Assembly (NCBI GenBank): GCA_030065635.1
Contig: JASJDJ010000005.1
Location: forward strand, 1-64,000
Reading direction: 5' to 3'
Length of the DNA stretch: 64,000 nucleotides
Source: Xenococcaceae cyanobacterium MO_188.B32
GTDB taxonomy: Bacteria > Cyanobacteriota > Cyanobacteriia > Cyanobacteriales > Xenococcaceae
In this document: piece by piece, positions 7,371-25,302 of the stretch
How the letters are laid out: each line of letters starts with the position of its first letter
Position numbering within the stretch: position 1 is the first letter of the stretch
The notes under the pieces: model-generated
What the model was told of the DNA's origin: nothing
What the model saw: the letters and a program-made list of their open reading frames with translations, nothing else
Databases searched by the model: none
Made by a program: the position numbers and the translations under genes

Positions 7371-9462
7371 GTGAAACTAATATTATCTTCTCTATTTTTC
7401 TTCTGTTTACTACCCAGTACTCTCCTTGCTCAAATTACTCCTGACTCTAGTTTAGATAAAAATTCAGTTGTAGAAACTAATGGTAATCGAGATACGATCG
7501 ATGGTGGTGATATTCGGGATGCTAATTTATTTCATAGTTTTAAAGAATTTAATGTAGAAGCAGGAAGAGAAGCTTACTTTAATAACCCCAAGGGCATCAA
7601 TAATATCTTCAGTCGAGTGACGGGGAATAATATTTCTGATATTCAGGGAGTGTTAGGAGTTTTAGGTAATGCCAATTTGTATCTAATTAATCCCAATGGG
7701 ATTCTGTTTGGTGAAAATGCCAGATTAGATGTCAATGGTTCTTTCTTTGCCTAATTTCGGGAGGGGCAATCCAGGAAATATCAAGATTACTGCCACTGAA
7801 AGCATTACCTTAAATAGACGAAGCAGGGGAGGAGGAAGATTAAGTGGGATTAGCAGCATAGTTCTATCAGGCGCAGTGGGGAATGGGGGCAATATTCAAA
7901 TTAGCACTGAAGATTTGTCTATCTCTAATGAGGCCATAATCGATACGACTACAGCAGGTAGAGGCAATGGAGGAAAGATAAATATTACGGCTACCAACCT
8001 TTCTCTTACTAAGGGAGGGGATATAAGTGCCAGCACTTTGGGGAGAAATGCTAACGATATTACTGAAGGCAATGCAGGGGATATTACTCTTAATGTGGCT
8101 GATACTCTTAATCTTAGTGACTCTGCGGGAATTTCCAATAGCAATTTGGGTAATGTAATCAGTGATGCGGAAATTGCCAATAGCATTTTGGGTAATAGAA
8201 TCGGTAATGCGGGCAAGATCGATATTACTGCTAGTAAACTTTTCTTAAGTAGTGGCAGTCAAATTAATAGTTTTACTAGAGGCAGGGGCAATGCAGGAAG
8301 TATCACTATTAATGCCGCAGATTCTGTCTTATTAGATGGAGGAACCGAGTTAGAGGTGGCCACTGTAATCAGTACTGGTGTAGAGAAGGGAGGGGTTGGT
8401 AATGGAGGGGAAATTAAGATTAATACCAACAATCTTTCAGTCCTGAACGGCGCACAAATCGACAACCCTACCCTTGGGGAAGGTAATGCTGGAAATATCA
8501 CCATAAATGCTCGAGAGGCAATTTTCCTCAGCGGTCAAGATAGAGAAGGCTTTCCTAGTGGTATTTTTAGTAGTGTTCAGAAAACAGCACGAGGAAATGG
8601 AGGCAAGATTAACATTACCACCGAAAACTTAGCTCTATTCGAGCATGCTGTTATCTCCGTGGGGAGTCTTGGACAAGGTAATGGCGGAAATATATTTATT
8701 CAGGCTAATTCTTTCAGTCTGGAGCGGGATTCAGCACTTAGGGCTGCTACTTCTTTTGGTACAGGGGGCAATATTACTTTGCGCATTGAGGATGATCTAA
8801 CCCTAAAAGATAACAGTTTGATTTCAGCCCAAGCGATTAATGATGCCGATGGCGGTAATTTAGATATTGATACTAGATTTATTGTGGCTTTCCCCGCCCA
8901 AAATAACGATATCATTGCTAGTGCCGAACGAGGAACTGGTGGCAAGATTGATATTACTGCTGAAGCACTCTTTGGTATAGAAGAAAGGAGTTCGACTCCG
9001 ACCAATCAGACTAACGATATCGATGCTAGTTCTCAGTTTGGTTTATCAGGAACAGTAAATATAACGCAACCAGATGTTAATCCCACTAGTGGTTTATTAG
9101 ACTTGACTCAAGAAGTAGTCAATGCCTCTGACTTAATCGCACAAAATGTCTGTACGCAAACAGCCAATAGTGAGTTTGTCGATATCGGTAAAGGTGGCTT
9201 ACCCCAAAATCCCGAATATATTTTAGTAGAAGATCCTATTGATGTAGAATTAGTTGCACCTATAATTACATCTGGAGAAGAAATTAAATCAATCACCGAA
9301 ACAGAAGCAGTAAAACCACAAAAAACTCTTAAACCTCCCGCTCAAGGTTGGATTTTCCATGAAAACGGCATAGTAGAGTTAGTGGCTTATAATCCCGAGC
9401 GAGTAGGCGATCGACGTACCAGAGATAATTATAGAAGTTGTCAACTCGATCGAAACTCTTAA
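7371..9462 (+). pseudogene. Broken two-partner-secretion exoprotein (filamentous-haemagglutinin type)
   Basis: The first part (7371-7754, GTG start) encodes a signal peptide and the start of a TPS domain ending NPNGILFGENARLDVNGSFF, then a stop. A second frame, open from 7729, continues with ~570 residues of beta-helix repeats (GNGGKINITATNLSL-like) and the conserved C-terminal tail with PAQGWIFHENGIVELVAYNP. The intact paralogue at 25675 shows what is missing: after NGSFFA it continues with the rest of the TPS domain. A deletion with a +1 frame change near 7755 therefore joined the two parts. The product could not be secreted as one chain. The 3' third remains very similar at DNA level to the paralogue. 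Confidence 0.82.
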
Positions 9463-9628: not shown

Positions 9629-10414
9629 TTAACTAACATCACGTTTTTCTCTAACTACGAACTCCGAACTACGAACTCCGAACTCACGTTTAACAGGAGG
9701 TTTTAGACGAGAGGGAGGCTCGATAATTGTACCGTCTTGAAACCAAATAATTCGCTGACACGATCGAGCTATTTCCGAGTCATGGGTAACCATCACAATG
9801 GTCATGCCCTCATCATTGAGTTGCTGGAAAATCTCTAGTACTTCTTGGCTAGTGCGAGAATCTAATGCTCCTGTTGGCTCATCTGCCAAAAGCAAAATTG
9901 GTTGATTGACAAGAGCGCGGGCGATCGCTACTCGCTGCTGCTGACCCCCAGAAAGTTGATTGGGACAATAGTACATTCGTTGTTCTAGTCCAACCCTACT
10001 CAACGCATCTATGGCTCGCTTTTGGCGTTCCCGTCGGGGAATTTCTGCATAAACCATCGGCAGCATGACATTTTCTAAAGCAGTTAATTGAGGTAATAAA
10101 TAAAACTGTTGAAAAACAAAGCCGATTTTACGGTTGCGGATGTAGGCTAAATCTCGATCGTTAAGTTGTTCTACTGCCTGGTTTTCTAAGTAGTAGTGTC
10201 CTTGACTGGGTCGATCGAGACAGCCGAGAATATTCATAGTCGTGGATTTCCCAGAACCAGAAGCACCCATAATCGCACAGTACTCTCTTTGACGAATAAC
10301 CAGATCGATCTTGTGGAGAACGTTGACCTCCAAATCTCCCCGACCATAGGACTTTTCCACTTGTTCCAAACGAATAATTTCAGAAGTCATTGGTAACTCA
10401 AACTTGGCTATCAT
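9629..10414 (-). CDS. MacB-type ABC exporter ATPase
   Basis: A 261-aa ATP-binding protein with Walker A GASGSGKST, signature LSGGQQQR, Walker B ILLLADEP and the H-loop VMVTHD. The pattern is that of the LolD/MacB/DevA class that powers tripartite exporters. It is the last gene of the biosynthetic operon, two bases after the permease stop and downstream of a HlyD-type adaptor, so it most likely energises export of the cluster product. The C-terminal tail (EFGVRSSEFVV) is translated from the dispersed GTTCGGA repeat, meaning the original stop was lost or the end was rewritten by repeat insertion. The transported substrate is inferred only. Confidence 0.92.
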   Translation of the reverse strand: MIAKFELPMTSEIIRLEQVEKSYGRGDLEVNVLHKIDLVIRQREYCAIMGASGSGKSTTMNILGCLDRPSQGHYYLENQAVEQLNDRDLAYIRNRKIGFVFQQFYLLPQLTALENVMLPMVYAEIPRRERQKRAIDALSRVGLEQRMYYCPNQLSGGQQQRVAIARALVNQPILLLADEPTGALDSRTSQEVLEIFQQLNDEGMTIVMVTHDSEIARSCQRIIWFQDGTIIEPPSRLKPPVKREFGVRSSEFVVREKRDVS

Positions 10415-10416
10415 GG

Positions 10417-11646
10417 TTAACTCCTCAACGCAACTATGGGTTCGAGACGAGCAGCACTACGGGCAGGAATTACACCAAATCCCAAACCAATAGCTCCAGA
10501 CATACCGACTGCTAAAATAATAGCTACTGGACTTATGACGGCTTCTAAAGGGGTTAAAGTTGCTAGCACTAAAGTACCAGCTACAGCGATCGCAATTCCC
10601 AAGCTTCCTCCAGCCACAGAGAGGATAATTGCTTCAGTAGTGAATTGAACCATCACATCGGTACCAGTAGCCCCAATTGCTTTACGTAAACCAATCTCAT
10701 GGGTGCGTTCGGTTACAGACACCAACATAATATTCATAATGCCTATTCCCCCCACTACTAAGGAGATACCCGAAGTTGCTGCCAGAAAAATAACCAGCAT
10801 ACCAGTGACCAAGTTGGCGGTTTTGAGTAAATCTTGTTGAGAGCGCACCGTAAAATCATTTTCGCCCTTTTTAATGCCGTGGCGTAAGCGCAGCAGATTA
10901 GTAATTTGGTATTGAGCAGCACTAATAGTTTCTGGAGAACGAGCCGAAACCGAAATAGACTGTACCGTTGGACTGGTAAGAGAACCGCCTTTTCCTGTAA
11001 GCTGAGCAGCCATTACTTTAATCGGCACGAACACTATTTCATCCTGGTTGGTACCCATAGATGAACCTTTTTCTGCCATGACACCAATTACTTGGAAACT
11101 TAAGTTACGGATGCGGATTTTTTCTCCTAGAGGGTCGCGATTACCGAAGAGTACACTAGCAGTTTCGTTACCTAAAACAGCAACTCGATGGTTAGATTGC
11201 ACCTCCAATTCATTAAAAAATCGACCTCTAGCCACAGATGCATTACGAACACTAGTGTATATTGGTGTTGTTCCAGTAACGTTCACTTGAGTATCTCTGT
11301 CTGCCCAACCGATCCGAAGCCGTTCGGTTTTTTCTGGAGCTACTGCCAGTACTGCTGGTACTTCCCGCGCGATCGCTTCCGCATCTGCCAGTACTAAAGT
11401 ATTAGCCTCTGCCGTACCTATTTGAGGCCCGCCTTGTTGAATTCCTGGTAGTACGAACAAAACATTGGTTCCCAATGATTCAAACTGTTTGTTAATGAAA
11501 TTTTGAGCCCCCTGTCCCACATTAATCATGGCAATTACCGAAGAATTACCAATAATTATGCCGAGCATAGTCAAACAACTACGCATTTTGTTTGCGCTCA
11601 GGGTTCGCACCGACATATTTATGTTTTCTACAAAATTTACACCCAT
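10417..11646 (-). CDS. MacB-type ABC exporter permease
   Basis: A 409-aa FtsX/MacB-like permease. It has an N-terminal membrane segment after SANKMRSCLTMLGIIIG, a periplasmic MacB_PCD domain (residues ~50-260) and three C-terminal membrane helices with the typical cytoplasmic TERTHEIGLRKAIGAT motif. It lacks its own ATP-binding domain, which is the next gene (two-base gap). With the HlyD-like adaptor 69 bases upstream this makes a DevBCA/MacAB-like exporter. Position at the end of the biosynthetic operon suggests product secretion or self-protection. Confidence 0.92.
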   Translation of the reverse strand: MGVNFVENINMSVRTLSANKMRSCLTMLGIIIGNSSVIAMINVGQGAQNFINKQFESLGTNVLFVLPGIQQGGPQIGTAEANTLVLADAEAIAREVPAVLAVAPEKTERLRIGWADRDTQVNVTGTTPIYTSVRNASVARGRFFNELEVQSNHRVAVLGNETASVLFGNRDPLGEKIRIRNLSFQVIGVMAEKGSSMGTNQDEIVFVPIKVMAAQLTGKGGSLTSPTVQSISVSARSPETISAAQYQITNLLRLRHGIKKGENDFTVRSQQDLLKTANLVTGMLVIFLAATSGISLVVGGIGIMNIMLVSVTERTHEIGLRKAIGATGTDVMVQFTTEAIILSVAGGSLGIAIAVAGTLVLATLTPLEAVISPVAIILAVGMSGAIGLGFGVIPARSAARLEPIVALRS

Positions 11647-11715: not shown

Positions 11716-13011
11716 TCAGTTGCTAAAAGCCCCAGGTGCTTGACCTTCAGGAAAATCAACAAATACTTTTTCTCCTAGTTCTAATCCTTCTAAAACTTGA
11801 GTATGACCATCTTGAGTAACCCCAACCTTAATTGGTTGAAATTTGGCTTGTCCTTGTTCGTCTGCTACTAGTACGCCAATCTTTTTATCGCGACTGGTTA
11901 TAGCCACTGTTGGTACCATCAGTACTTCTTTAAGTAAATCTCCTTTAAAAGTTGCATCCACATTCATGCCAGAGAGTAATGCTGACTGTCCAGTGACCAG
12001 TTCTACGCGTACCTCAAAGTAAGTTACATTATCTTCTACAATGGCTTCGGGAGCAATTTTGCGTACTTTACCTGTAAAGGTGCGGTCTGGATAGGAATTG
12101 GCTACTATTTCTACTTCCTGCCCCATTTTAATCCCAGAGATATTGGCTTCTGGTATTTCTACTAATACTTCTACACCCTTTGCCATAGCTAGAATTGAGC
12201 TAGATGTTGCCGAGACTGTACTAGAAGCGGAAGTAGTAGGAGTCACAATTGCACCGATCGAGGCATATTTTTGGGTGATAATACCGTTAAAAGGAGCCTT
12301 AATGAAAGTAGAATTTAGTTGAGCTTGAATCAACTGTACTTGGGCGCGGGCTGCTGAGACACGGGCTGCTGACTGTTGAATATCTTCGGGGCGAGAACCA
12401 CTAGTCAATTCTTGTAGAAGTTGTTGTGCTTCTTGTAAACTAGCTCTAGCACTCTGGTCTTCGCTAATTACTTCATCTAGATCGATTTGGGCTAATGCGC
12501 CTTCTCGAGTAAGAAAGCGATATCGCTTTAACTTTTTAGCATTCAGATCGACCCTCGCCTGGGCAGATGCTACTTGCGCTCTAGCTCTACTAATCTCTTC
12601 TAGACGACTGCCATTGCGAATCAAGGCATACTCTGCTTCAGCCTCGGCTAACTGCGCTTTTGCTTGAGATAGAGATGCTTCTAGTTCTGCCGAATACATT
12701 TGGGCTAAAACTTGACCTGCTTTAACTTCATCCCCCTGATCGACATAGAGGGCGACTAATCTGCCAGTGTTTTCTGGACTGAGATTGACAGTTTCGAGCG
12801 GTTCTACAGTTCCACTAGCTTCAATACGAATGGCTAGCGACTGACTTTCAACGGGAACTGTCAAGTTAGTTAAACTGGGTATCGATCGATCGCTTTGCCG
12901 AGATTTACGCAGTACATTAGTTCCAAACGTACCGAGTAAAACGACAATTGTAATTGATAGCAAGATTGAAATCCAGCGAGGGCGAGAGCGTTTGTAAGCT
13001 GTTGTATTCAT
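11716..13011 (-). CDS. HlyD/MacA-type periplasmic adaptor
   Basis: A membrane-fusion protein of 431 aa with one N-terminal transmembrane helix (ISILLSITIVVLLGTFG), a biotinyl-lipoyl-like half (VDQGDEVKAGQVLAQM), a long Ala/Gln/Glu-rich coiled-coil hairpin, a second lipoyl half (FIKAPFNGIITQKYASIG) and beta-barrel domains. The ATG at 13011 is chosen over a start 14 codons upstream because an AGGA sequence lies about nine bases before it. It joins the inner-membrane ABC pair to an outer-membrane channel (TolC-like), which is not in the window. Part of the biosynthetic operon. Confidence 0.9.
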   Translation of the reverse strand: MNTTAYKRSRPRWISILLSITIVVLLGTFGTNVLRKSRQSDRSIPSLTNLTVPVESQSLAIRIEASGTVEPLETVNLSPENTGRLVALYVDQGDEVKAGQVLAQMYSAELEASLSQAKAQLAEAEAEYALIRNGSRLEEISRARAQVASAQARVDLNAKKLKRYRFLTREGALAQIDLDEVISEDQSARASLQEAQQLLQELTSGSRPEDIQQSAARVSAARAQVQLIQAQLNSTFIKAPFNGIITQKYASIGAIVTPTTSASSTVSATSSSILAMAKGVEVLVEIPEANISGIKMGQEVEIVANSYPDRTFTGKVRKIAPEAIVEDNVTYFEVRVELVTGQSALLSGMNVDATFKGDLLKEVLMVPTVAITSRDKKIGVLVADEQGQAKFQPIKVGVTQDGHTQVLEGLELGEKVFVDFPEGQAPGAFSN

Positions 13012-13065
13012 TGTAGATATCCTAAAGCTAATTAATCTAAAGACTGTCAGCATAAAATAATTAGT

Positions 13066-14157
13066 TCATATCCTCTTGAGAATTTTATTAGTCGACTGGG
13101 AGTCAACCTTTTGGACATATACTTTGGTTTGATACATCCAGTAATAAATTGAGGAGAATAGAACAAATACACACAAAGAAAAAGAAACTAAAGTGGAGTT
13201 GAGAGGAATTAAGAGGAGAGAACTGATCGACTCGATCGAGATCAAACCGATGAGAATTTTCGCAATAGTTTGACGCTTCAAGAGGCTGCATAATATAGCT
13301 CCAGTTGGTGCCCCCACTACAACTACTGGTACCGCTGCCAGCCAGTAATTCCGCACGGGTTCGATAAAGTCACCGATAAAATATTGATGAAGAATAAAGC
13401 CAGTCCAAGCATTGATAGCCATCAAAATTACCGAGGTAGGGGTGCTTACCTTTTCACATAAACCGAATAATAAAACCATCACAGAAAAAGAAAAAATATC
13501 TAGACCACTGCCCACTAAACTACTAATGATTCCCCCTATTAGTCCTACTCCTAGAGAGAAAACTCTTTCCCTCTTTCTCCAAGTGGGGATAGCAAAATTC
13601 CGCGCCCTTCGAGTTCGATTTAAGGCAAATAAAAGAATGGCAAAGCTGCTGACCATCATCGTGAAAGAAATTTTAATTGCTTCTGGGGGCAGAATGGGAG
13701 CCAAAAAGACTGAGCCTAAGACGATGCCAGGAATGCTTCCCAGACCTACCCAACGGATAAACTTCCATTCCACCTTGGTTCTCATAGCCACAATGGTCAG
13801 AGAAGCTGCACCCATACCTATACTTTGAATCGCTAAAGAAAAGACCTTGGCGTCGTGGGGAGGAACTTGAAGCCACTTGGTTAGCACTGGAAAAGCGACT
13901 GCTCCTCCTCCCATGCTCGTACCGCCTGCAACCATAGAACCAAAAATCATGGTCACTGCTACCTGCCAATGAGCGATGAAATTAGCAATTGCGGTAGCAG
14001 GACCCAAAGCAGTTAGCCATAAAGTCCAAGCAGCGATCGCACACAGACAACTGGTTCGCAGAAAGCTTGGTGCAAAAATCTTAGTTTTGGTCAGATTAAA
14101 GTGCTGTCGGGATAGATTGATAGAACAATTAGTTTTGGTAATTCTTGGTGGTGGCAT
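13066..14157 (-). CDS. TauE/SafE-family membrane permease
   Basis: A 363-aa multi-pass protein with the TauE/SafE pattern: SMVAGGTSMGGGAVAFPVLT in the first repeat and GLIGGIISSLVGSGLDI in the second, each followed by several hydrophobic helices. The family moves small anions such as sulfite, sulfonates or organic acids. Inside this operon (42-base gap to the TyrA-like gene) it might export an aromatic or organic-acid intermediate, or be a second exporter for the product. That role is inference; the family call is good. The N-terminus has a ~35-residue extension before the first helix. Confidence 0.8.
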   Translation of the reverse strand: MPPPRITKTNCSINLSRQHFNLTKTKIFAPSFLRTSCLCAIAAWTLWLTALGPATAIANFIAHWQVAVTMIFGSMVAGGTSMGGGAVAFPVLTKWLQVPPHDAKVFSLAIQSIGMGAASLTIVAMRTKVEWKFIRWVGLGSIPGIVLGSVFLAPILPPEAIKISFTMMVSSFAILLFALNRTRRARNFAIPTWRKRERVFSLGVGLIGGIISSLVGSGLDIFSFSVMVLLFGLCEKVSTPTSVILMAINAWTGFILHQYFIGDFIEPVRNYWLAAVPVVVVGAPTGAILCSLLKRQTIAKILIGLISIESISSLLLIPLNSTLVSFSLCVFVLFSSIYYWMYQTKVYVQKVDSQSTNKILKRI

Positions 14158-14199: not shown

Positions 14200-15045
14200 T
14201 CAGCTAGATAGTGCTAGGCTTTTCTGAGAAGATTTACTCGTAAATTTTCTTGGTAGATTAGTTGTAGAAGAAACTTGATGCTTCTGTTCCAGCTCTTGAG
14301 CAGCAAGAAGAGTACTTAGGGCATTAATCATATGAGTACTCTCTTTGAAACCACAGGGAATCTCTTGGGCAAAAAAGCTTTGAGAAATCTGAAACTCACG
14401 GAGAAGGGCATCTCGATCGCCATTATTGACTAATTGAGCTAAGCGACTATAATTATCTGCCAAGCGAGAGATGGCTTGTCGGCGCTCTGGTGTAGCCAAA
14501 ATGATATCTACTATCAGAGGGGCAGACTGAGCAAAGAGGCGACTGACTATAGCAATGGTATGACGGTAGAGAGGACTGGCAAAATCTAAACTACGACGGA
14601 TATTAATGTTTTCCTCTGAGAAAAAAGCTCCCATACTCAGAGTGGTAAAGTTGCGAATTGCTTGAATGTCCACCATCATGCGGTCGTGTTCTTCTGGAGT
14701 AGCATAAATTAGTTTGCCTCCATCACTTTGAATCAGGTCTAGCAACCATTGAAAACATCGGTCTCCACGACCGGGACAAACTACAATTTTTTGCGATAAA
14801 AAGGATGTAATACCAGGACCAAACATAGGATGCAAACCCATTACCGGACCAGGATGATATTCCAGCATCGCTTTGACTATGGGAGTTTTGATACTGGCAA
14901 TATCTGCTAAGGCGGTAGTAGGAGAGATATATTGAGCTGCCTGGCGAATTACTTTAACCACGCATTCAATAGGATTTATCGGGTTAGTATTCCATTGGAT
15001 CTGTTGCCAGAAGTGAGGCGTTTTCGGACCATCGGGTAGTTTCAT
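14200..15045 (-). CDS. TyrA-like prephenate dehydrogenase domain lacking the NAD-binding start
   Basis: The 281-aa protein follows the dehydrogenase part of E. coli-type TyrA: ALADIASIKTPIVKAML, LGLHPMFGP-like GLHPMFGPG (His72, the expected catalytic His), the block HDRMMVDIQAIRNF, and SPLYRHTIAIVSRLFAQ. What is missing is the first Rossmann strand with GxGxxG, normally ~90 residues before LHPMFG; here only ~70 residues precede it and none carries the motif. The start is supported by a GGAG sequence upstream, and no earlier in-frame start is open. It may therefore not bind NAD normally. It lies 25 bases after the chorismate mutase gene, so a prephenate-related role is plausible. Either an altered enzyme or a remnant. 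Confidence 0.8.
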   Translation of the reverse strand: MKLPDGPKTPHFWQQIQWNTNPINPIECVVKVIRQAAQYISPTTALADIASIKTPIVKAMLEYHPGPVMGLHPMFGPGITSFLSQKIVVCPGRGDRCFQWLLDLIQSDGGKLIYATPEEHDRMMVDIQAIRNFTTLSMGAFFSEENINIRRSLDFASPLYRHTIAIVSRLFAQSAPLIVDIILATPERRQAISRLADNYSRLAQLVNNGDRDALLREFQISQSFFAQEIPCGFKESTHMINALSTLLAAQELEQKHQVSSTTNLPRKFTSKSSQKSLALSS

Positions 15046-15070: not shown

Positions 15071-15508
15071 CTAACTTAAGACCGCTAAATCAAGACGTAA
15101 ATGAGCAGCACCACGCAGATAGATATGGCGCAAGTTCTGTTGAGACATTGGAGTGTTAAGGTGGATAAGGACCCGAATGCAGCGTTCCAGGCTATCGGAC
15201 ACCTGCATATGTTGTAAGTCTAGCAGGGGAACGCGATTCCAACCAGGACGGCAACGGGCTATTGAAGCAGGAAACAAAGCATCTAAGTCCCTGGTTATTG
15301 AAAAGGTTACACTTACTATTTCCGCTGGGTTTAACTGATTTTCAGTTTCTAGAATATCGAGTAAATCCTCTACAGCTTCAGCAATTGCTGCTACTGAATT
15401 TTCGCTGGCAGTAGTTGCGCCCCTGAGCCCGCGCACCCGCCATTGAACTTCTGTAGTTGATTTGTGATAAAGCTGGTTTCCTTGGGTAGAAATTCTTAAT
15501 TTGTCCAT
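15071..15508 (-). CDS. aroH: AroH-type chorismate mutase
   Basis: A 145-aa monofunctional chorismate mutase of the trimeric B. subtilis AroH fold: RGLRGATTASENS, then RDLDALFPASIAR, GWNRVPLLDLQHM and LERCIRVLIHLNT. It converts chorismate to prephenate. The internal ATG at 15508 is preferred to a TTG overlapping the previous gene, although a ~23-residue extension precedes the conserved core. In a by-eye alignment the positions equal to B. subtilis Cys75 and Glu78 are Asp and His (LLDLQHM), while the Arg90 region is kept. Placement next to the TyrA-like gene and in an operon headed by DAHP synthase points to dedicated supply of aromatic precursors. Confidence 0.87.
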   Translation of the reverse strand: MDKLRISTQGNQLYHKSTTEVQWRVRGLRGATTASENSVAAIAEAVEDLLDILETENQLNPAEIVSVTFSITRDLDALFPASIARCRPGWNRVPLLDLQHMQVSDSLERCIRVLIHLNTPMSQQNLRHIYLRGAAHLRLDLAVLS

Positions 15509-15552
15509 TTTTGTCGGCCTAATTTCTGCTTTTTCAGTTATTTTTCTACAAA

Positions 15553-16221
15553 TCAATTGTTCTCACTTAACAATGCCACCGGTGCTAGAGGTTCATCGAT
15601 CTTCTCAATACTGGTATTAACCTCTTGTTCAAACTCTACTGGACCCATAGATTTAGGAAAGTTCCAATATGGGTGAACTGACATTAAAGCCTTACTGGGA
15701 ACTATTTTTGGTTGAGCTAGAGAATCAGAAAATATCTCTGGAGGATACCTGAAGCGAATTGTTAATGATAATTCCGACTGACGCTCGTTTTTTGGTATGA
15801 ATAAGACAAACTCATCTTCATTAGAACCATCGAGGGTAATATTAGGATCTGCTTTATAGAAAATGGGAACAAACTCAGGGCGTACCCTATTAACAATAGT
15901 TCTGGCTCGATCGTGATCGTCGATAGTTGTATCAGGATTTTTAGAGCCCTTTTCCACAATCTCGTCTTCAATATTGATGTTGTACTCTACAACTGAAGCA
16001 TCATACTCATTAAAAGCATTGTTAAACAAATCTGGACGCACAAATACCTTTCCTGGGATCGAGTCATCAAAAACAAAATAACCGTTGACTCGATTGTTGT
16101 TGAAACTAAATTTGTACAGGTCAGCTCGGGCAGATGGTGTGTTGACTATTCCCTGTATTAGGAATACGGCGATACTAATAAAAGCTACGAGGGATAATTT
16201 TTTCCAGAATTTCACTTGCAC
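15553..16221 (-). CDS. Exported protein of unknown function in the biosynthetic operon
   Basis: A 222-aa protein with a clear Sec signal peptide (KKLSLVAFISIAVFLIQGIV, likely cleaved after ARA). The mature part begins DLYKFSFNNNRVNGYFVFDD, a pattern that recalls the start of many exported beta-rich cyanobacterial proteins of PEP-CTERM type, but there is no C-terminal sorting signal. No catalytic motif is recognised. Its stop overlaps or abuts the chorismate mutase reading frame, so it is in the operon. A periplasmic role in product handling is possible; no function can be assigned. Confidence 0.75.
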   Translation of the reverse strand: MQVKFWKKLSLVAFISIAVFLIQGIVNTPSARADLYKFSFNNNRVNGYFVFDDSIPGKVFVRPDLFNNAFNEYDASVVEYNINIEDEIVEKGSKNPDTTIDDHDRARTIVNRVRPEFVPIFYKADPNITLDGSNEDEFVLFIPKNERQSELSLTIRFRYPPEIFSDSLAQPKIVPSKALMSVHPYWNFPKSMGPVEFEQEVNTSIEKIDEPLAPVALLSENN

Positions 16222-16313: not shown

Positions 16314-17759
16314 CTATACTGTTGCAGGTACAGTTTCACTCATTTGAGCGACAGGGAATATTCCCAGTTGGGGTTTCTTGCACAAACCTAAGCCATTAAC
16401 TTCGGGTAAATAAGAAAACAGTCCGTTCCAAATCTGGGCAAAAACTTTTTCATGGTGTTCTCGGAGAGCGCTGGCTGGCAAACCCTTTTTCTCTTGCTCG
16501 ATAGCCAAGCGAATACCTTCTTCTCCGAGAGATAGAAGAGAACTCATGTGCTGAGCAACCATCTCGCGCATCTGAGGATCGACTTTCTGGAAATCCGCCA
16601 TCTGGGCAATAAACTCCGACGGTTGAGCTGAGGAGTCGGGTTTATGCATTTTATGGTAGAAGGAAGACACAAACACCATTAAGCTCAGATAGTGGAAACG
16701 GCAGACCCGATCGTAAAACGATAGGGCTCGTTCCTCTGTTATCTCGTTGCGGAAAATACTACTGATACTGGCCGCAGTCATCATGCCAGTGAAAAAGCTC
16801 ATGTGTACGCCAGTAGAGAGTAAAGGGTCTAGGAAACAAGCTGCATCTCCTACCAGGAAGTAACCAGGACCGGAGAAGTTCTCAGCCCAATAGGAGAAAT
16901 CTTGACCGATTTCGATTTTAGAAACTAATTCCGCGGGCTCTACTACTTCTGCAATTGCTGGGCAATCAGCGATCGCTTGAAGGAAAACCTCTTTCATGCT
17001 GGCTTTAGACCTTCTAGCTTTATAGAGCTCGTTGTTGATGACCAAACCGACACTCAGGAGGTCATCATCTACTGGAATTCCCCAAAACCAACCCGAGCCA
17101 TCTTTAGTGGAAGCAGTTATAGTAGCATTATCGGGCTGAATTGGTTTAATTTTGGCGTTCTTGTAATATCCCCAAATAGCTAAGTTTTCAAACTCTTCGT
17201 GATACTGTCGGTTGTGTAAATAATGATTAGCCATCAGACCATAACCACCAGACGCATCCACCAGGTAGTCAAAAGTGATTTCCCCCGATTGTTGCTCGGA
17301 ACCACGACCTCTAGACCAACTTGCTTTGACAGGTCTCTCCCCTGCAAAAGAGATTTCTTTAATTTGAACTCCTTGGAAAACTTTTACTCCCTGGGTTTTT
17401 CCATGGCTCATTAGCAGGTTATCAAACTCGGGACGGCGAACCTGAAAAGTGTAGGTGCTATTGTCATTAACAGCTATATCTTCAAATTTGAAAGACCACT
17501 CTTGAGGGCCCCAATCAAAATAAGCTCCAGTTTTGCGCAAGAAACCATGAGCTTCTACTTTCTCGCGAATTCCCAGTAAGTCAAAAATTTCTAGAGCGCT
17601 GGGCAAAAGAGATTCGCCAATCTTAGTATTAGAGCCTTTGCTCTTTTCTACTAGAGTAACATCAAAACCTTCACGAGCTAAGAGAATAGCCGTAGTAGCT
17701 CCAGCAGGTCCGCCACCAACAACTAAAACTTGGGTAGATGAGGGTAAAATAGACGTCAT
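16314..17759 (-). CDS. Flavin-dependent halogenase
   Basis: A 481-aa FAD-dependent enzyme. The dinucleotide motif GGGPAG is at 15-20. Both halogenase hallmarks are present: a GES-type motif (KIGESLLP, 46-53) and WFWGIP (224-229), matching WxWxIP, which separates halogenases from ordinary monooxygenases. Lys76 (FLRKTGAYFDWG) is in the place of the catalytic lysine. The later GDAACFLDPLLSTGVH block matches phenolic/pyrrole-type halogenases such as PltA and CndH. It would chlorinate or brominate an electron-rich aromatic ring, most simply a phenol-bearing intermediate. It needs a flavin reductase, which is not encoded nearby. It lies 38 bases after the KAS III-like gene. Confidence 0.88.
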   Translation of the reverse strand: MTSILPSSTQVLVVGGGPAGATTAILLAREGFDVTLVEKSKGSNTKIGESLLPSALEIFDLLGIREKVEAHGFLRKTGAYFDWGPQEWSFKFEDIAVNDNSTYTFQVRRPEFDNLLMSHGKTQGVKVFQGVQIKEISFAGERPVKASWSRGRGSEQQSGEITFDYLVDASGGYGLMANHYLHNRQYHEEFENLAIWGYYKNAKIKPIQPDNATITASTKDGSGWFWGIPVDDDLLSVGLVINNELYKARRSKASMKEVFLQAIADCPAIAEVVEPAELVSKIEIGQDFSYWAENFSGPGYFLVGDAACFLDPLLSTGVHMSFFTGMMTAASISSIFRNEITEERALSFYDRVCRFHYLSLMVFVSSFYHKMHKPDSSAQPSEFIAQMADFQKVDPQMREMVAQHMSSLLSLGEEGIRLAIEQEKKGLPASALREHHEKVFAQIWNGLFSYLPEVNGLGLCKKPQLGIFPVAQMSETVPATV

Positions 17760-17797: not shown

Positions 17798-18940
17798 CTA
17801 ACTATGCACCAAAATTTTTTCCTGGGGTTCTTTGCTCAAACTCAATGCTGGGGAAGGAGCAGGACCTAGAGCAACTTGACCCCAACGCATTACGGTAGCT
17901 GCGCCGTTAGAGGAAGAGCCCATGGTATATACAAGAACTAAATCGTTTTCTTGAATTTTGCCCCACTGTGCTGCGTGATAGAGATTGGCAAAGGGGAAAG
18001 CAGGCCCGATGTTGCCATAAATAGGGTTAAGATTGATGGTGCGTTTTGGATCTACGCCGAGAGCGCGGGTACAAACTTTTGCATACCATGCAGTAGGGGT
18101 ATTGAACACGAAAAAGTCAATATCATCGAAACTTACTCCTGCTTCTGCTGCTGCACCTTCACAGCAATTGCGTAGAAACTTCACTGTGGTATCGACAAAC
18201 ATTTTGCCTGTATTTTTACGAGTCCTCAGATAAGTATGATAGGGAGCTTTTTCGGTAAATTCTTGATAGAATGCACCACAGGTTTCGGCGGTATTAATAA
18301 CTTTGGTACCGAGAATTCCTTGGCTTTCTTCTAGAGTTCCTATTACAAATGCCCCAATACCATCCCCAGATAAGAATGCGAGGCTATCATAAGGATCGGT
18401 AATGCGAGAATAATTAGTTGCTACTACGATCAGTACGTTGCGATACTCTCCGGTGCGTACTAAAGAACAGGCAGTCTGCAAAGAAACTAAACCACTGGTG
18501 CAGGTAGACTCTACATTCCAGGCTGCACCTTTAAGACCTAATTTGCCAGCCAGAAAAGCTGCATCCCCAGGTAAAAGATGGTCGGGAAATAGAGAAGTAA
18601 CTAGCATCAAATCTACTTCCTCGGCAGAAAGCTTAGCAGCAGCTAGAGCATCGCAGGCAGTGCGATATTCGAGGTCTAGAATTGAATCTTCTGGAGTCAA
18701 CACCCGACGTTCGACAGTACCGCGAAAGGGATCGGACATATAGGGCATCATTTCTTCCGTCCAGATGTCCAAGGCTTTGTCCTCAGAATCAGATTTAACT
18801 AGAGAAAAAGTCCGCGCTAGAGTTTTTTCTTCTGCCTTGGCTACTAATTCTGGGTGATGTTGGCGATAATAATCGTTGGTGCGAATGATGCTAGGAAAAC
18901 TAACCGCGATCGCACGGATACCTACTGGTTTAAAATTCAT
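17798..18940 (-). CDS. KAS III-like enzyme, candidate furanolide-type synthase, His replaced by Asn
   Basis: A 380-aa thiolase-fold protein of the ketoacyl-ACP synthase III family. The nucleophile is Cys147 (ESTCTSG) and the asparagine is Asn310 (YGNIGPA). At the position of the catalytic His (30 residues before that Asn, as in FabH 244/274) there is Asn280 in FVFNTPTAW. A C-N-N site argues against ordinary decarboxylative condensation and fits an enzyme that does another C-C or acyl transfer reaction. In furanolide (cyanobacterin) biosynthesis a KAS III-like protein couples a cinnamoyl-type thioester to an acyloin; the neighbours here supply exactly those two partners. A good ribosome-binding site (GGAG) precedes the ATG. 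The specific role is inferred. Confidence 0.85.
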   Translation of the reverse strand: MNFKPVGIRAIAVSFPSIIRTNDYYRQHHPELVAKAEEKTLARTFSLVKSDSEDKALDIWTEEMMPYMSDPFRGTVERRVLTPEDSILDLEYRTACDALAAAKLSAEEVDLMLVTSLFPDHLLPGDAAFLAGKLGLKGAAWNVESTCTSGLVSLQTACSLVRTGEYRNVLIVVATNYSRITDPYDSLAFLSGDGIGAFVIGTLEESQGILGTKVINTAETCGAFYQEFTEKAPYHTYLRTRKNTGKMFVDTTVKFLRNCCEGAAAEAGVSFDDIDFFVFNTPTAWYAKVCTRALGVDPKRTINLNPIYGNIGPAFPFANLYHAAQWGKIQENDLVLVYTMGSSSNGAATVMRWGQVALGPAPSPALSLSKEPQEKILVHS

Positions 18941-18990: not shown

Positions 18991-20772
18991 TTATATTTTG
19001 GCTCCTTGAGCTTTTAAGCTGTTAATTCGACCGCCAATGGGTGCTTTTTGATTAGGATCGATCCTGATATCCACGACAAAAGGTAGAGGTGAAGCCATAG
19101 CTTGTTCTATTGCCTCTGCTAGTTCGGACTCTCGACGAACGCAAATTCCGTTAGCTCCCATCCCTCTGGCAATTTGAACGAAGTCTGCTTGGGGAATCTC
19201 TGTATCTACCCCAGAGAAACCTTGCATTGCTGCCCCTTGAGCGCACATATTGTAGCTAGCATCATTGAGTACGAGCCAAACTGTGGGAACTCGGAGTTTA
19301 ACGGCGGTACTTATTTCACAGTTCATTAACATAGAACCATCCCCGACGATCGCTACAGCTTTACGGTTGCTACCCAAAGCAGCACCTACTACTCCTGTAG
19401 CAGCGTGACCCATTGCACCTATCCCAGTACTAATTCGATAGCGATTCGATCGCTCAAATTGTAGTAAGTGAGTTGCCCAAGCAAAAGAGTTACCAGCATC
19501 AGCCATAATAAGCGCATCACTGTCTCGGACGATTTGCTGCTGAATCGCTTCCATCAGCACTGCTGGTCTGACAGAGTCAGTGGAGGAGGGGGCTACCGCC
19601 AGCTGGGGTCGAGGAAAGGGAGTACTAGCACCCTTAACCAAATCTTTGGCTAAATTTTGCAGCAAGGTTGTCACAAAATCACCGATTTCAGACTGAATGG
19701 CATGGGTTTCGACACTGGGATAAGCAACTCCCGGCACTTCTGGGTCGAGGTCTACGTGAATAAAGCCTCGGGGTGGAATCATCGCCGGATTCCAGAAAGA
19801 AGTAGGCTCGCCCAGGCGGGTTCCTAGCACCAGTATCCTTTGGGGGGTGTGCTGTTCCATATATTCCAAGACAGAGCTATGTCCTGCAAACCCAGTAACC
19901 CCGATAAACTGAGGATGAGTTTCGGGAAAAATTCCCTTAGCACGGGGAGAACACATTACGGCTGCCCCCGTTCTTTCTGCTAGTTGGCGGATGGGTAGGG
20001 CAGCATGACGAGCCCCAAAACCCAGCCAGATAGCAAAGGAATCTTGAGTCAACCACTCCGTGCATCGATCGATCGCTTTTTGACTGACAGTTGCTATGGT
20101 ACGAGAAAAGTTTAAAGGTGGTAGAGATACCAAAGCAGGACTGGTTTGAACCGCAGTAGGAATGCTGATATGGGCAACAAAACCACCTGGCTTAGTCAAG
20201 CCTAGAGACAACCTCCGCGCAATTTCTGGTAGTTGTTCTCCACTTTCTAAAACAGTAGCGAAATGAAATAGCGAGCTAGAAGTAAAAATCCCTTCTTGGG
20301 GCATGGTATAGGGACTGGTTTCCTGACAAGCCCATCTTCCCCGACTGGCTACCGAAGTAGAAGCCGAGAGTAAAATTACCTTTGCCCCTTCTCCTCTAGC
20401 AGCCAACAATCCCGTTAAAGCATTGGTAATACCAGGGCCAGTAGTGGTAAAAACTACAGTCGGACGATCGCTAGCAAAGTAGGATTCGATCGCAGCAAAG
20501 GCTGCACCAGTTTCATGACGAAAATGAACTACTTGCAGGGGACTTTGGGACAAATTTGCCCATAAAGGACCGATACCACCACCAGAGACACCAAAGGCAC
20601 TGTTTACTCCCAAATATACTAAAATTTTGACTATAAACTCTGCTACGGTAATGGAACCTGGGTGAGAAAAATTAGGCAGTGTCGCGCCAGAAGATTTAGA
20701 AGGAGAAAAAATCGAGGAACCTGGCGATTTTTCGCTAATAACTGAAGAGTTCGTCTGAAATTGAGTACTCAT
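18991..20772 (-). CDS. ThDP-dependent acyloin-forming enzyme (acetolactate-synthase-like)
   Basis: A 593-aa protein of the acetolactate synthase/ScyA superfamily with all three domains. The PYR domain has the catalytic glutamate (FRHETGAAF, Glu87). A central TPP_M domain follows. The PP domain has the ThDP/Mg2+ motif GDGSMLM (477-483) ending in ND (503-504). Such enzymes decarboxylate an alpha-keto acid and join it to another carbonyl. Here the likely donor or acceptor is an aromatic keto acid (phenylpyruvate or 4-hydroxyphenylpyruvate) supplied by the chorismate mutase branch, giving an acyloin. It is not a housekeeping IlvB: no regulatory subunit gene is near, and a ~40-residue Ser-rich extension precedes the domain. 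It lies 31 bases after the CoA ligase gene. Confidence 0.87.
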   Translation of the reverse strand: MSTQFQTNSSVISEKSPGSSIFSPSKSSGATLPNFSHPGSITVAEFIVKILVYLGVNSAFGVSGGGIGPLWANLSQSPLQVVHFRHETGAAFAAIESYFASDRPTVVFTTTGPGITNALTGLLAARGEGAKVILLSASTSVASRGRWACQETSPYTMPQEGIFTSSSLFHFATVLESGEQLPEIARRLSLGLTKPGGFVAHISIPTAVQTSPALVSLPPLNFSRTIATVSQKAIDRCTEWLTQDSFAIWLGFGARHAALPIRQLAERTGAAVMCSPRAKGIFPETHPQFIGVTGFAGHSSVLEYMEQHTPQRILVLGTRLGEPTSFWNPAMIPPRGFIHVDLDPEVPGVAYPSVETHAIQSEIGDFVTTLLQNLAKDLVKGASTPFPRPQLAVAPSSTDSVRPAVLMEAIQQQIVRDSDALIMADAGNSFAWATHLLQFERSNRYRISTGIGAMGHAATGVVGAALGSNRKAVAIVGDGSMLMNCEISTAVKLRVPTVWLVLNDASYNMCAQGAAMQGFSGVDTEIPQADFVQIARGMGANGICVRRESELAEAIEQAMASPLPFVVDIRIDPNQKAPIGGRINSLKAQGAKI

Positions 20773-20803: not shown

Positions 20804-22315
20804 TTAGAAAGTTGACAGAGATAATTGTTTTTGTCTTAATACTCGCTTGAGTATTTTTCCGCTACCATTTTTGGGAAGGGAATCGACAAACTCGATTTCT
20901 TGGGGTCGTTTGTAAGTGGCGATTATTTCCAAACAGAAAGCATCAATATCTGCTGCGCTGGTGGTATAACCTGGTTTGAGAACGATATCCGCTTTAACGA
21001 TTTCTCCTTTAACCGAGTTGGGAACTCCATAAACCGCTACCTCAAACACGGCAGGGTGTTGATAGATAGCATTTTCTACCTCTGCGGGATACACTTTAAA
21101 TCCAGAGACATTAATCATATCTTTGAGTCGATCGACAATGTAGAAGTAGCCATCTTCATCCCGTCTACCAAGGTCGCCAGTATAAAACCAACCATCGCGG
21201 ATTGCTTTATCTGTATCTAAAGGTCGATTCCAGTAACCCAACATAACGTTAGGCCCCCGTACCGCAATTTCTCCTAATTCTCCCGTCGGTACTTCTCTGC
21301 CATCATCATCGACAATCTTCATTTCTACGTTTTCGATAGGAGTACCAATAGAACCAAACTTGTACTTTAAAGAATGGTTGTAACAAGCGCAAGGAGCAGT
21401 TTCGGTCATACCGTACCCTTCATATACTCTCAGTCCTCTTTGTTGCTCCCATCGGCGGGCAATTTCTACTGGCATGGTAGAAGCAGCAGAGAAGCAAAAG
21501 CGTACCGAACTCCAATCTGATGCAGATAAGTTATCGTTTAGTAGTTTGATGTACACTGTTGGTACACCAAAGAACATGGTTATTTTTTCTCTAGAGATTA
21601 CCTCTAAAACTCCTTCTAAATTAAATCTGCGTTGCAGCACAATGGTGGCGCAGACATTAAATCCAGAGTTGAGAATGGCATTTTGACCGAAACAATGAAA
21701 TAGAGGTAGGTAAAGTAGTAGTCGATCGTCAGCCGTCATTCCACAACAACGGTTTTGAGCATACATATTAGAGATAATATTGCCGTGGGAAAGGGTGGCT
21801 CCTTTAGGAAAACCAGTAGTTCCCGAAGTATAGATAATCGCTGCGGGAGTCTTAGGCTCGATTTTGACGGCTTTAGCTTCAGGAAAAGCATTAATTATTA
21901 AGTGATACAGACTAATACCCTTGCTGGTTTTAACTTCGGCAAAGAACATATGTTCTAAATAGGGTAAGTCTGCTACTTCGACATTTTCTGACAGCGTTTC
22001 TGTAGTAATAATGACTTGAGCAGCACAATCGTTAAGGATATACCTCACCTCGCTACTTTTGAGCATGGCGTTGAGAGAAACCGCGATCGCTCCTAGCTTT
22101 AGAATGGCTAGATAGGAAATCACAAATTCAGGGATATTGGGCAGAAAGAGGGCAACGCGATCGCCTTTACTAACACCTTTTTTGTGCAAGCCATTGGTCA
22201 AGCGATTAACTACGTAATTTAATTGCTCATAGGTGTAAGACCGATTCTCAAAAATCAAGGCAGTTTTGTGAGGGAACAGTGTAGCTCCCCGTTCTATATG
22301 CTTTGCAATATTCAT
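20804..22315 (-). CDS. ANL-family acyl/aryl-CoA ligase
   Basis: A 503-aa adenylate-forming enzyme with the AMP-binding motif YTSGTTGFPKGA, the EGYGMTETAP block, the GWFYTGDLG hinge region and the C-terminal catalytic lysine in PKNGSGKILKR. It activates a carboxylate as acyl-AMP and then the CoA thioester. Sequence alone does not separate fatty acyl from cinnamoyl/coumaroyl specificity, but its position directly after the ammonia-lyase gene (58-base gap) makes the cinnamic or coumaric acid product the best candidate. It would deliver the thioester to the KAS III-like enzyme. Confidence 0.87.
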   Translation of the reverse strand: MNIAKHIERGATLFPHKTALIFENRSYTYEQLNYVVNRLTNGLHKKGVSKGDRVALFLPNIPEFVISYLAILKLGAIAVSLNAMLKSSEVRYILNDCAAQVIITTETLSENVEVADLPYLEHMFFAEVKTSKGISLYHLIINAFPEAKAVKIEPKTPAAIIYTSGTTGFPKGATLSHGNIISNMYAQNRCCGMTADDRLLLYLPLFHCFGQNAILNSGFNVCATIVLQRRFNLEGVLEVISREKITMFFGVPTVYIKLLNDNLSASDWSSVRFCFSAASTMPVEIARRWEQQRGLRVYEGYGMTETAPCACYNHSLKYKFGSIGTPIENVEMKIVDDDGREVPTGELGEIAVRGPNVMLGYWNRPLDTDKAIRDGWFYTGDLGRRDEDGYFYIVDRLKDMINVSGFKVYPAEVENAIYQHPAVFEVAVYGVPNSVKGEIVKADIVLKPGYTTSAADIDAFCLEIIATYKRPQEIEFVDSLPKNGSGKILKRVLRQKQLSLSTF

Positions 22316-22373: not shown

Positions 22374-24071
22374 CTAGTTAGACAAAAGTTCGCTGACTGC
22401 TTGGACAATTTCTCCTCCAGCAGCTATATCAGCAGTAATTCTAGCTATATGTTCATCTAAAAATTGCTCGTCATCATTCCAGACATAGGGCTTATCTGCT
22501 GTTGGCGATTTACCAATCACCTTAAGAACAGCCAAGTACAATTGCTGAGTAGCTGGAGACAAGGATTGATAGGCATCGTAATGCCCTTTAATTAAATAAT
22601 TCCGCAAATCTACAGCTTGTACTCCAAACATCAGAGCGATCGCTAAATATTGCCGACCAATTTCTAAAGAACTACGGGTTAAATTAGCCGAACCAAATCC
22701 TTGAGAGTTGATATTTTGATTGAATTGTTCTGCATGGGTGGGAAAGCGGTCTGCTAGAGAATTACCATAAAAACTTAATAGTGGCATGAGAGAGTTGGCA
22801 GTTATTTGCAAACCCTTAAGTCCCATATTCACCGAACGCTGGGGATTGCCTACTAGGGACGCTGGCAGTCCGTGGTTAAATTCTGGTGCTACCAACATGG
22901 CAATTTGCACATCTAAATGCTTGGTTAGTAGACCTAGATAGTAGCGTAGGCTATCCATGCCTGTCCCTATATATTGACCGAGAAAATTTCCACCGTGGTA
23001 ACTGGCTTGATTGTCAACATCGATTAAAGGATTGTCAGTAACCGAGTTAATTTCCGTCTCGATTTGTTTGGCTATCTGTTCTATGCCATCAACTATTGGT
23101 CCTAGATACTGAGGTAAACAGCGCAGAGAATAACGGTCTTGAATCGGTTGGTCTCCCCGATAGTCATGAGAGCCATCTAATTCATTGCGAATTAAAGCGG
23201 AACCAGTTAACAACTCAAGCATTTGAGATGCTGCCCATTTTTGTCCTGGATGGGGTTTACAGCGATGAATAAACTCATGGAAAGATTGATTGGTTCCATT
23301 TAAACCTTGAATCATCAGGGCATGGGCACCCATAGCTAAAGATAAAAGAATACGAGCATCCCAGACACAATTAGCTGCAATTCCCGTCATCACTGAAGTG
23401 CCATTCATCATTGCCAACCCTTCTTTAGGCTGGAGTTGTATCGGTGGCAAACCAAGTCGATCGAGGGCTGTGGGTGCATCTAACTCTTCCCCATTAAAGT
23501 CAACGGTATAGCAGCGATCTAAACCGACCAATGCCCCAGTAATATAGGACAAAGGAACTAAATCTCCGCTAGCACCAATAGAGCCAAACTCGTACACGTG
23601 GGGAGTAACATTAGCATTGAGGAAAGTTTCCATGCGTCGAATCAACTCTAGCCGAATACCAGATGCACCCTGCACATGAGAGTTCATCCTCAGGAGCATC
23701 GCAGCGCGCACATCCGCTAGGGGTAACTTGTTTCCCGTTCCTGTTTTGTGATAGCGAATGAGATTGTTTTGTAGTATGGCAGCCGATTCGGGGGAAATAA
23801 CCACATTGGCCATACCGCCAAAGCCACTAGTAACACCATAAATAGGCTGACCATTTGCTACTGCTTCCGCTATGTAATTAGAGGATGATTCGACTCTTTG
23901 TAATACCTGCTGTTCATCGCTAATACACGCTTGAGTACCATAGCGCGCTACCCGCACAACTTGTTCGACTGTTAAATTTTCTCGACCGACAATTACCGTC
24001 TGATTTGAGGGCTTAATAGTTGATAATTGGACATGGTAAATCTTATTGTCTTTTAAAGATGTGATGTTCAT
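22374..24071 (-). CDS. MIO-type aromatic amino acid ammonia-lyase (PAL/TAL)
   Basis: A 565-aa enzyme closely similar along its whole length to Anabaena phenylalanine ammonia-lyase. It has Tyr78 (PIYGVTSGFGG), the Ala167-Ser168-Gly169 triad that forms the MIO cofactor (GSIGASGDLVPLS), and NPLIDV and NQNINSQGF. It removes ammonia from Phe or Tyr to give trans-cinnamate or p-coumarate. The selectivity pair that is Phe107-Leu108 in the Anabaena enzyme is Tyr107-His108 here (NLIRYHKTGTG), so Phe specificity should not be assumed and Tyr use is possible. Second gene of the operon, 130 bases after DAHP synthase; that gap has a perfect palindrome that may be an operator. Confidence 0.92.
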   Translation of the reverse strand: MNITSLKDNKIYHVQLSTIKPSNQTVIVGRENLTVEQVVRVARYGTQACISDEQQVLQRVESSSNYIAEAVANGQPIYGVTSGFGGMANVVISPESAAILQNNLIRYHKTGTGNKLPLADVRAAMLLRMNSHVQGASGIRLELIRRMETFLNANVTPHVYEFGSIGASGDLVPLSYITGALVGLDRCYTVDFNGEELDAPTALDRLGLPPIQLQPKEGLAMMNGTSVMTGIAANCVWDARILLSLAMGAHALMIQGLNGTNQSFHEFIHRCKPHPGQKWAASQMLELLTGSALIRNELDGSHDYRGDQPIQDRYSLRCLPQYLGPIVDGIEQIAKQIETEINSVTDNPLIDVDNQASYHGGNFLGQYIGTGMDSLRYYLGLLTKHLDVQIAMLVAPEFNHGLPASLVGNPQRSVNMGLKGLQITANSLMPLLSFYGNSLADRFPTHAEQFNQNINSQGFGSANLTRSSLEIGRQYLAIALMFGVQAVDLRNYLIKGHYDAYQSLSPATQQLYLAVLKVIGKSPTADKPYVWNDDEQFLDEHIARITADIAAGGEIVQAVSELLSN

Positions 24072-24201: not shown

Positions 24202-25302
24202 TTAAACGATGCTGACGGAGTTTTGTAAGTACTGAATTTTGTTAATATCACAAAAAGTATATCGTTCGGGACAACGATCGATAACTTGGCTGACAAGATC
24301 GATTTCTTGCATTAATTCGGCATAACCTTGAGGAGTTAGGGATTGGGGTCCATCAGAAAGTGCTTTGGCTGGATTAGGATGTACCTCAATCATTAGAGCA
24401 TCTGCTCCTGCTACTATGGCTGCTTTTGCCATTGCCGGTACTAATTCTGCTTTACCTGTTCCATGACTGGGATCGACCATAATCGGTAGGTGAGTCAAAC
24501 TACGTAATACTGGTATGGCAGAGATATCCAGAATATTGCGAGTATATTGGCGATCGAAAGAACGAACACCCCGTTCACAGAGAATAACATTGGGGTTACC
24601 TGCTGCCAAAATATACTCGGCTGCGAGTAACCATTCCTCAATAGTGGCTGACATTCCCCGCTTTAACAACACTGGCTTGGGCTGAGCACCCACTTTTTTG
24701 AGTAAAGAGAAATTGTGCATATTCCTCGCACCAATTTGTACCACATCTGCTACTTCTACTACTTTATCTAAATCGGCAGTATCCATAACTTCTGTGATAA
24801 TACCCAAACCTGTCTCTTGACGAGCGAGTGCTAGTAATTCCAAAGCACTTTCACCATGTCCTTGGAAAGCATAGGGAGAAGTACGAGGTTTATAAGCACC
24901 ACCTCTAAGAAACTTTGCCCCCGAAGCTTTTATACTTCTGGCTGTCTCTAAAATCATCTCTTCATTTTCCACTGAACACGGGCCAGCTACAGCCACAATA
25001 GGACAATGTTCGCCAAAACTTACAAGACCATTAGGAGTATCGACAATAACCTCACTGGCTTCTCCATGACGAAATTCACGACTAGTACGTTTAAACGGTT
25101 TTTCTATACGAGAAACCTTTTCGATAAATGGACTGATACTTTCAACCTGTTGAGTAGTAACACTAGTAGTATCACCAATTAGAGCAATTACTACTTTGTA
25201 TTTACCGACTATTTCTTCGGTTGTCAACTTGAAAATTTTTAATTCTTGACTTACTCTGTCGAGTTCTTCTCTGGGAGTGCCAGGCTTCATTACAATAATC
25301 AT
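24202..25302 (-). CDS. DAHP synthase, type I-beta (aroF/aroG-like)
   Basis: A 366-aa 3-deoxy-7-phosphoheptulonate synthase. It carries an N-terminal ferredoxin-like regulatory domain (~1-75, MIIVMKPGTPREELD) as in Thermotoga-type enzymes, then the barrel with AGPCSVEN, LRGGAYKPRTSPY, VLLKRGMSATIEEW and MVDPSHGTGK (metal and phosphate sites). It makes the first shikimate pathway intermediate from PEP and erythrose 4-phosphate. As the first gene of an operon with chorismate mutase, a TyrA-like protein and an ammonia-lyase, it looks like a dedicated copy that raises aromatic supply for the product. Copy C of the conserved motif lies 36 bases upstream and is co-oriented. Confidence 0.93.
   Translation of the reverse strand: MIIVMKPGTPREELDRVSQELKIFKLTTEEIVGKYKVVIALIGDTTSVTTQQVESISPFIEKVSRIEKPFKRTSREFRHGEASEVIVDTPNGLVSFGEHCPIVAVAGPCSVENEEMILETARSIKASGAKFLRGGAYKPRTSPYAFQGHGESALELLALARQETGLGIITEVMDTADLDKVVEVADVVQIGARNMHNFSLLKKVGAQPKPVLLKRGMSATIEEWLLAAEYILAAGNPNVILCERGVRSFDRQYTRNILDISAIPVLRSLTHLPIMVDPSHGTGKAELVPAMAKAAIVAGADALMIEVHPNPAKALSDGPQSLTPQGYAELMQEIDLVSQVIDRCPERYTFCDINKIQYLQNSVSIV

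Follow-up and report, generated by a model that had tools for sequence, protein, structure and literature searches.

The window analysed here, 64,000 nt of the genome of Xenococcaceae cyanobacterium MO_188.B32, carries a gene for a KAS III-like protein in which the catalytic Cys and Asn of FabH are kept and an Asn occupies the position of the catalytic His. In FabH this His, together with the Asn, assists malonyl decarboxylation. The locus raises the questions of which reaction such a protein catalyzes and whether the missing His belongs to this gene or to its family. Our analysis indicates that the protein is very probably a furanolide synthase of the CybF type, encoded in a gene cluster resembling that of cyanobacterin, and that the missing His is an ancient feature of the enzyme family as a whole, not an oddity of the window gene.

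Comparison with solved FabHs by phmmer and with E. coli FabH by MAFFT aligned Cys147, Asn280 and Asn310 with FabH Cys112, His244 and Asn274, respectively, and the three codons were read directly from the DNA; Asn280 and Asn310 are 30 residues apart. As controls, 25 other KAS III-type proteins were picked by Pfam family from related cyanobacterial genomes. All 25, including the host's own FabH, contained C-H-N, and the CybF-type proteins of the same control set contained C-N-N; the missing His is thus neither chance nor an alignment slip, and the residues named in a first-pass annotation of this locus were confirmed. With Asn280 at the His position, the protein lacks the Cys-His-Asn triad of FabH, and its NCBIfam fabH score (108 bits) is below the cut-off of 292 bits. 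As judged from its sequence, it is not a FabH and does not resemble a malonyl-decarboxylating condensing enzyme, as that annotation had held. The protein contains six His residues (28, 29, 121, 235, 322 and 379), among which only His322 is widely kept, being present in 58 of the 71 family members described below and absent from 13. We weighed His322 as a possible replacement base and discarded it, since its FabH counterpart is Glu286 and it lies twelve residues past Asn310. Because it occupies no catalytic position and is missing from those 13 members, no conserved substitute for the His is evident in the alignment.

Structure prediction, proposed earlier as a check, served for the fold and not for the active site. 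The AlphaFold model, built from a five-row alignment, has a mean pLDDT of 69, a modest confidence that is good for the fold and unfit for active-site distances. Its best Foldseek matches were FabHs (E 1e-22), and PqsD, PqsBC and OleA were also among the matches, in agreement with the thiolase-type (KAS III) fold that, together with an active-site Cys, is expected of a furanolide synthase. The fold, the presence of OleA and FabH among the matches and the retained Cys and Asn would also suit a decarboxylative Claisen synthase of the OleA or FabH kind, in which another residue stands in for the His. We regard this as very unlikely because no catalytic position holds a conserved His, all of the controls keep theirs, and the operon has no malonyl or ACP partner and matches furanolide clusters.

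The KAS III gene is the fifth in a series of minus-strand genes in the order DAHP synthase, ammonia-lyase, CoA ligase, ThDP enzyme, KAS III, halogenase, a protein of unknown function, chorismate mutase, prephenate dehydrogenase, TauE, HlyD and a MacB-like ABC transporter (Table 1). CybBCEF are the core furanolide genes, encoding an ammonia-lyase (B), a CoA ligase (C), a ThDP acyloin synthase (E) and the furanolide synthase (F); in the maculalactone (mac) BGC of Nodularia sp. NIES-3585, which yielded maculalactones when placed in E. coli, they are accompanied by a DAHP synthase and a chorismate mutase (PMC13288894). The cyanobacterin (cyb) cluster encodes the flavin halogenase CybI (PMC12481558, PMC8777810). 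The window locus co-encodes B, C and E, as furanolide clusters do, and the operon contains a flavin-dependent halogenase, as in cyanobacterin-type clusters, its likeness to CybI being one of role. Since the combination of DAHP synthase, ammonia-lyase, CoA ligase, ScyA-like ThDP enzyme, KAS III and halogenase is the signature of cyanobacterin-type furanolide operons, we assign the KAS III protein to the CybF type.

Table 1. Features of the window around the KAS III-like gene
Feature	Position	Strand	Basis
MacB/LolD-like ABC ATPase	9629..10414	-	conserved in L003/L084 and L085
MacB-like ABC permease	10417..11646	-	conserved in L003/L084 and L085
HlyD-type membrane fusion protein	11716..13053	-	homologues in L003 and L085 clusters
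TauE/SafE-family membrane protein (possible exporter; uncertain whether part of the cluster)	13066..14157	-	
Prephenate dehydrogenase without NAD-binding N-terminus	14200..15045	-	PDH_N match only from profile position 54; longer homologue in L085
AroH-type chorismate mutase (MacM-like, precursor supply)	15071..15556	-	CM_1, E 1.9e-43
Protein of unknown function	15553..16221	-	no Pfam match; homologues adjoin cybF in L031 and L085
Flavin-dependent halogenase, CybI-like in role	16314..17759	-	Trp_halogenase; GxGxxG and WxWxIP motifs
Probable KAS III-like furanolide synthase (CybF/MacF type), 380 aa	17798..18940	-	Pfam ACP_syn_III and ACP_syn_III_C; tree clade of B-C-E-F loci; operon context
Asn310 codon (= FabH Asn274)	18011..18013	-	codon read directly; kept in 70/71 family members
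Asn280 codon at FabH His244 position (FVFNTPTAW)	18101..18103	-	codon read directly; Asn in 53/71 family members
Catalytic Cys147 codon (= FabH Cys112)	18500..18502	-	codon read directly; invariant in 71/71 family members
ThDP-dependent acyloin synthase, CybE-like (ScyA-related)	18991..20772	-	Pfam TPP enzyme N/M/C; NCBIfam TPP_ScyA_rel 947 bits, cut-off 1000
Aryl/acyl-CoA ligase, CybC-like	20804..22315	-	AMP-binding; copies in other B-C-E-F clusters 58-68% identical
Aromatic amino acid ammonia-lyase, CybB-like	22374..24071	-	Lyase_aromatic, E 2.5e-151
DAHP synthase, CybA-like (precursor supply)	24202..25302	-	NCBIfam above cut-off

Phylogenetic placement agreed with the gene context. The window protein fell in a supported clade (98/95) with four other B-C-E-F loci, including a mac-like cluster, and outside the groups from salicylate, E-F-only and B-C-F contexts. 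The gene content of locus L033 (A-B-C-E-F, chorismate mutase, tyrosinase, NAD(P)-binding reductase and ferredoxin-dependent bilin reductase) is that of the published mac BGC, the two being matched by content, and its KAS III protein (L009, putative MacF) is 59% identical to the window protein and has the same C-N-N. The kinship to Tolypothrix CybF that we propose draws on the gene context and the mac-like cluster. The loss of a classical triad residue might instead point to a KAS III paralogue that has decayed or is not catalytic, a reading that we find scarcely credible: the frame is open throughout within a compact operon, the L003 orthologue is 78% identical, and Cys147 is invariant in the 71 proteins of the family, which span five gene contexts.

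Other features of the locus were also recorded. A fuller copy of the prephenate dehydrogenase is encoded elsewhere in the host genome (G000:C65), and the copy in the operon may be a remnant. No Rfam family was found between positions 9000 and 26000 of the window. The halogenase is rare: of 293 genomes of the order, only two, one of them the host, contained a match at E<=1e-80, and none was found at the other furanolide loci inspected. Its acquisition was therefore probably a separate event. The presence of this rare gene in the cluster points to a probably chlorinated furanolide; by analogy with cyanobacterin, the products would be algicidal and probably chlorinated lactones.

The reported chemistry of CybF indicates how such a protein could act. 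Starting from coumaroyl-CoA and an acyloin acid, CybF was reported to catalyze the whole cascade in vitro, namely O-acylation, a formal Morita-Baylis-Hillman reaction and a 1,4-hydride shift (PMC12395478); its first step was termed a decarboxylative O-acylation (PMC13288894). By analogy, the ammonia-lyase and CoA ligase of the window would provide the CoA thioester of cinnamate or coumarate, and the ThDP enzyme would join two alpha-keto acids into an acyloin beta-keto acid. Cys147 of the KAS III enzyme would then be loaded with the aryl-acryloyl group, the acyloin acid would lose CO2 to give an enediol or enediolate that is O-acylated, and a Morita-Baylis-Hillman-type ring closure with a 1,4-hydride shift would give a butyrolactone, which the adjacent halogenase would probably chlorinate. 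For CybF itself, substrates and products have been published; the same reaction in the window protein, the role of Cys147 and the chlorinated product are inferences.

This scheme would also account for the missing His. Since the carbon nucleophile would not be derived from malonate, the His that serves malonyl decarboxylation in FabH would not be needed, and Asn occupies its position. Spontaneous decarboxylation of the acyloin beta-keto acid to a shunt product has been described (PMC8777810), which makes the His plausibly dispensable. The first-pass annotation had suggested a non-decarboxylative C-C coupling, lactonization or acyl transfer. All three of these reactions match the published CybF chemistry (PMC12395478, PMC13288894); the qualifier "non-decarboxylative" does not, since the published step is decarboxylative (PMC13288894). 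The CO2 is lost from the acyloin beta-keto acid and not from a malonyl group, and the loss of the His therefore does not imply a reaction without decarboxylation.

To place position 280 in a wider frame, we assembled 71 non-identical family members, including the window protein, from two genome searches covering the phylum and the order, whose 386 and 391 genomes overlap in part, together with a plasmid collection; a scan of genome contigs provided three close relatives only, and the remainder came from the wider genome searches. Position 280 was Asn in 53 members, Tyr in nine, His in three, Thr in three, Phe in two and Pro in one, so that His was absent from 68 of the 71, including the distant Streptomyces and Mycetohabitans members. 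By context, the 21 proteins of B-C-E-F clusters had N in 17, H in two, Y in one and F in one. The nine from B-C-F loci without the ThDP enzyme had Y in seven, F in one and N in one; the 18 from E-F pairs alone had N in 13, T in three, H in one and P in one; and the 19 from salicylate clusters all had N. The distant Streptomyces and Mycetohabitans relatives, encoded beside ACP, adenylation and acyl-CoA dehydrogenase genes, both had N, and two members had no clear gene context. Each H of the B-C-E-F clusters belongs to a tandem pair whose partner has N. The loci are L103 and L107, where tandem cybF copies follow B-C-E, one with Asn and the other with His, and they offer a natural comparison within a cluster. 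In another B-C-E-F locus, L094, Tyr takes the place of the His and Val that of Asn310 in the KAS III protein, which so retains only the Cys of the triad.

The occurrence of Tyr, Phe or His in some B-C-E-F clusters indicates that the Asn itself is not essential. It was also common throughout the family, including proteins with salicylate-metallophore and pyrrole-carboxyl neighbours, which runs counter to the earlier view that the Asn was distinctive and hinted at an unusual reaction. Being common family-wide and variable within B-C-E-F clusters, the residue alone is not diagnostic of the reaction; the gene neighbourhood is.

The relatives in other contexts bear on a simpler reading, in which the window protein is an aroyl shuttle like CerJ, ChlB3 or CloN2 that only moves coumaroyl from CoA to an alcohol or a carrier, the ring closing without its help. 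Several relatives are found in carrier contexts, among them KAS III-ACP fusions with a salicylate synthase and ligase, and the set of KAS III, ACP, adenylation and acyl-CoA dehydrogenase genes is that of the clorobiocin route, in which CloN2 transfers a pyrrole-carboxyl group from carrier to carrier (PMC11218499). The parallel with CloN2 is suggested by this shared gene set; in the literature searched, we found no paper naming both CloN2 and KAS III, nor one naming FabH with H244A. Acyltransferase precedents with the first His replaced also exist: the corresponding position is Val in the acyltransferase CerJ and Asn in paulomycin Pau29, which was proposed to be one (PMC4425429). However, the window locus encodes a CybE-type acyloin synthase, no carrier protein was recognized adjoining the KAS III gene, and the homologue CybF was reported to run the whole cascade (PMC12395478). 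We therefore consider a simple shuttle unlikely for the window protein and retain the assignment as a furanolide synthase. The contexts of the relatives nevertheless suggest a shared step, in which an activated aromatic acyl group would be taken on Cys147 and handed on.

CybF-family KAS III proteins occur in salicylate-synthase NRPS/PKS clusters at L035, L036, L038, L041, L043, L046, L047, L049, L050, L052, L056 and L059. In those scanned with Pfam (L041, L050 and L052), a carrier domain is fused to the C-terminus, and in L050 the KAS III, the carrier and a whole C-A-PCP module form one protein of 1585 aa. These proteins are likely counterparts of fatuamide FatG, for which a role as a salicyl shuttle may be proposed by analogy.

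A separate observation concerns the B-C-F loci L034, L051, L053, L098, L109, L110, L111 and L113, as well as L042, where a Ser/Thr kinase-AAA-GAF-histidine kinase of about 1815 aa adjoins the cluster in varying orientation. Kinases of this type number 12-23 copies per genome; the linkage nevertheless looks conserved, since the cluster-adjacent copy is each genome's best match to the L051 copy (53-81%; 45% in the E-F locus L042). A CybF-like B-C-F cluster and its kinase possibly constitute a signal-and-sensor module.

In a tree of 34 proteins rooted on FabH, in which the root branch is long and the deepest order tentative, each context group except E-F fell on one side of a branch. With this root, Asn is the most economical ancestral state at position 280. 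The family as a whole is most economically read as an aroyl-transfer scaffold that would have lost its His before it was recruited for furanolide assembly. We tentatively extend this reading, as a possibility that we do not rate above its alternatives taken together: the CybF type may be one line of a KAS III family without the His (NTPTAW motif) that once shuttled aroyl groups between carriers or CoA and was recruited, already His-less, to form C-C bonds of the Morita-Baylis-Hillman kind, and the B-C-F branches, mostly with Tyr and beside the giant Ser/Thr-His hybrid kinase, may make further aryl products, possibly signals.

Cyanobacterin and similar furanolides inhibit photosynthesis. CybF has been described as the first Morita-Baylis-Hillman enzyme, and the route from a KAS III active site to such chemistry is of interest. 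The natural Asn, Tyr, Thr, Phe, Pro and His variants, each in a known context, constitute a ready-made mutant series for asking which residues are needed. The furanolide synthase type itself was already known; what the present analysis adds is that the loss of the His is a family trait with natural variants.

Among known systems, FabH, OleA and PqsD share the fold, the Cys and the Asn with the window protein. OleA and PqsD carry a catalytic His, as FabH does, whereas the window protein does not, and their substrates and chemistry are different. CerJ, ChlB3 and Pau29 resemble it in using the KAS III fold, or being proposed to use it, for acyl transfer, and the first His is replaced in CerJ and Pau29; however, they keep a His-Asp pair with Cys or Ser (PMC9573744, PMC4425429). 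The Cys-His-Asp triad of CerJ and ChlB3 is absent from the window protein, in which, by way of the FabH alignment, the His and Asn positions are both Asn and no conserved His is nearby. FatG, the KAS III protein of the fatuamide A metallophore cluster, to which no role is assigned in the part of the published account drawn on here (PMC11877528), appears by its size (1524 bp) and context to belong to the salicylate branch. That branch has the NTPTAW motif and keeps the Cys and Asn, but differs from the window protein in its C-terminally fused carrier (in the members scanned) and in the salicylate synthase and NRPS/PKS genes that replace the ThDP enzyme and ammonia-lyase. The closest likeness is to CybF and MacF, with which the window locus shares the B-C-E-F core, the DAHP synthase and a KAS III-type enzyme, C-N-N also in the putative MacF; it differs from them in having a halogenase gene of its own next to the one for KAS III, together with a set of ABC and HlyD genes.
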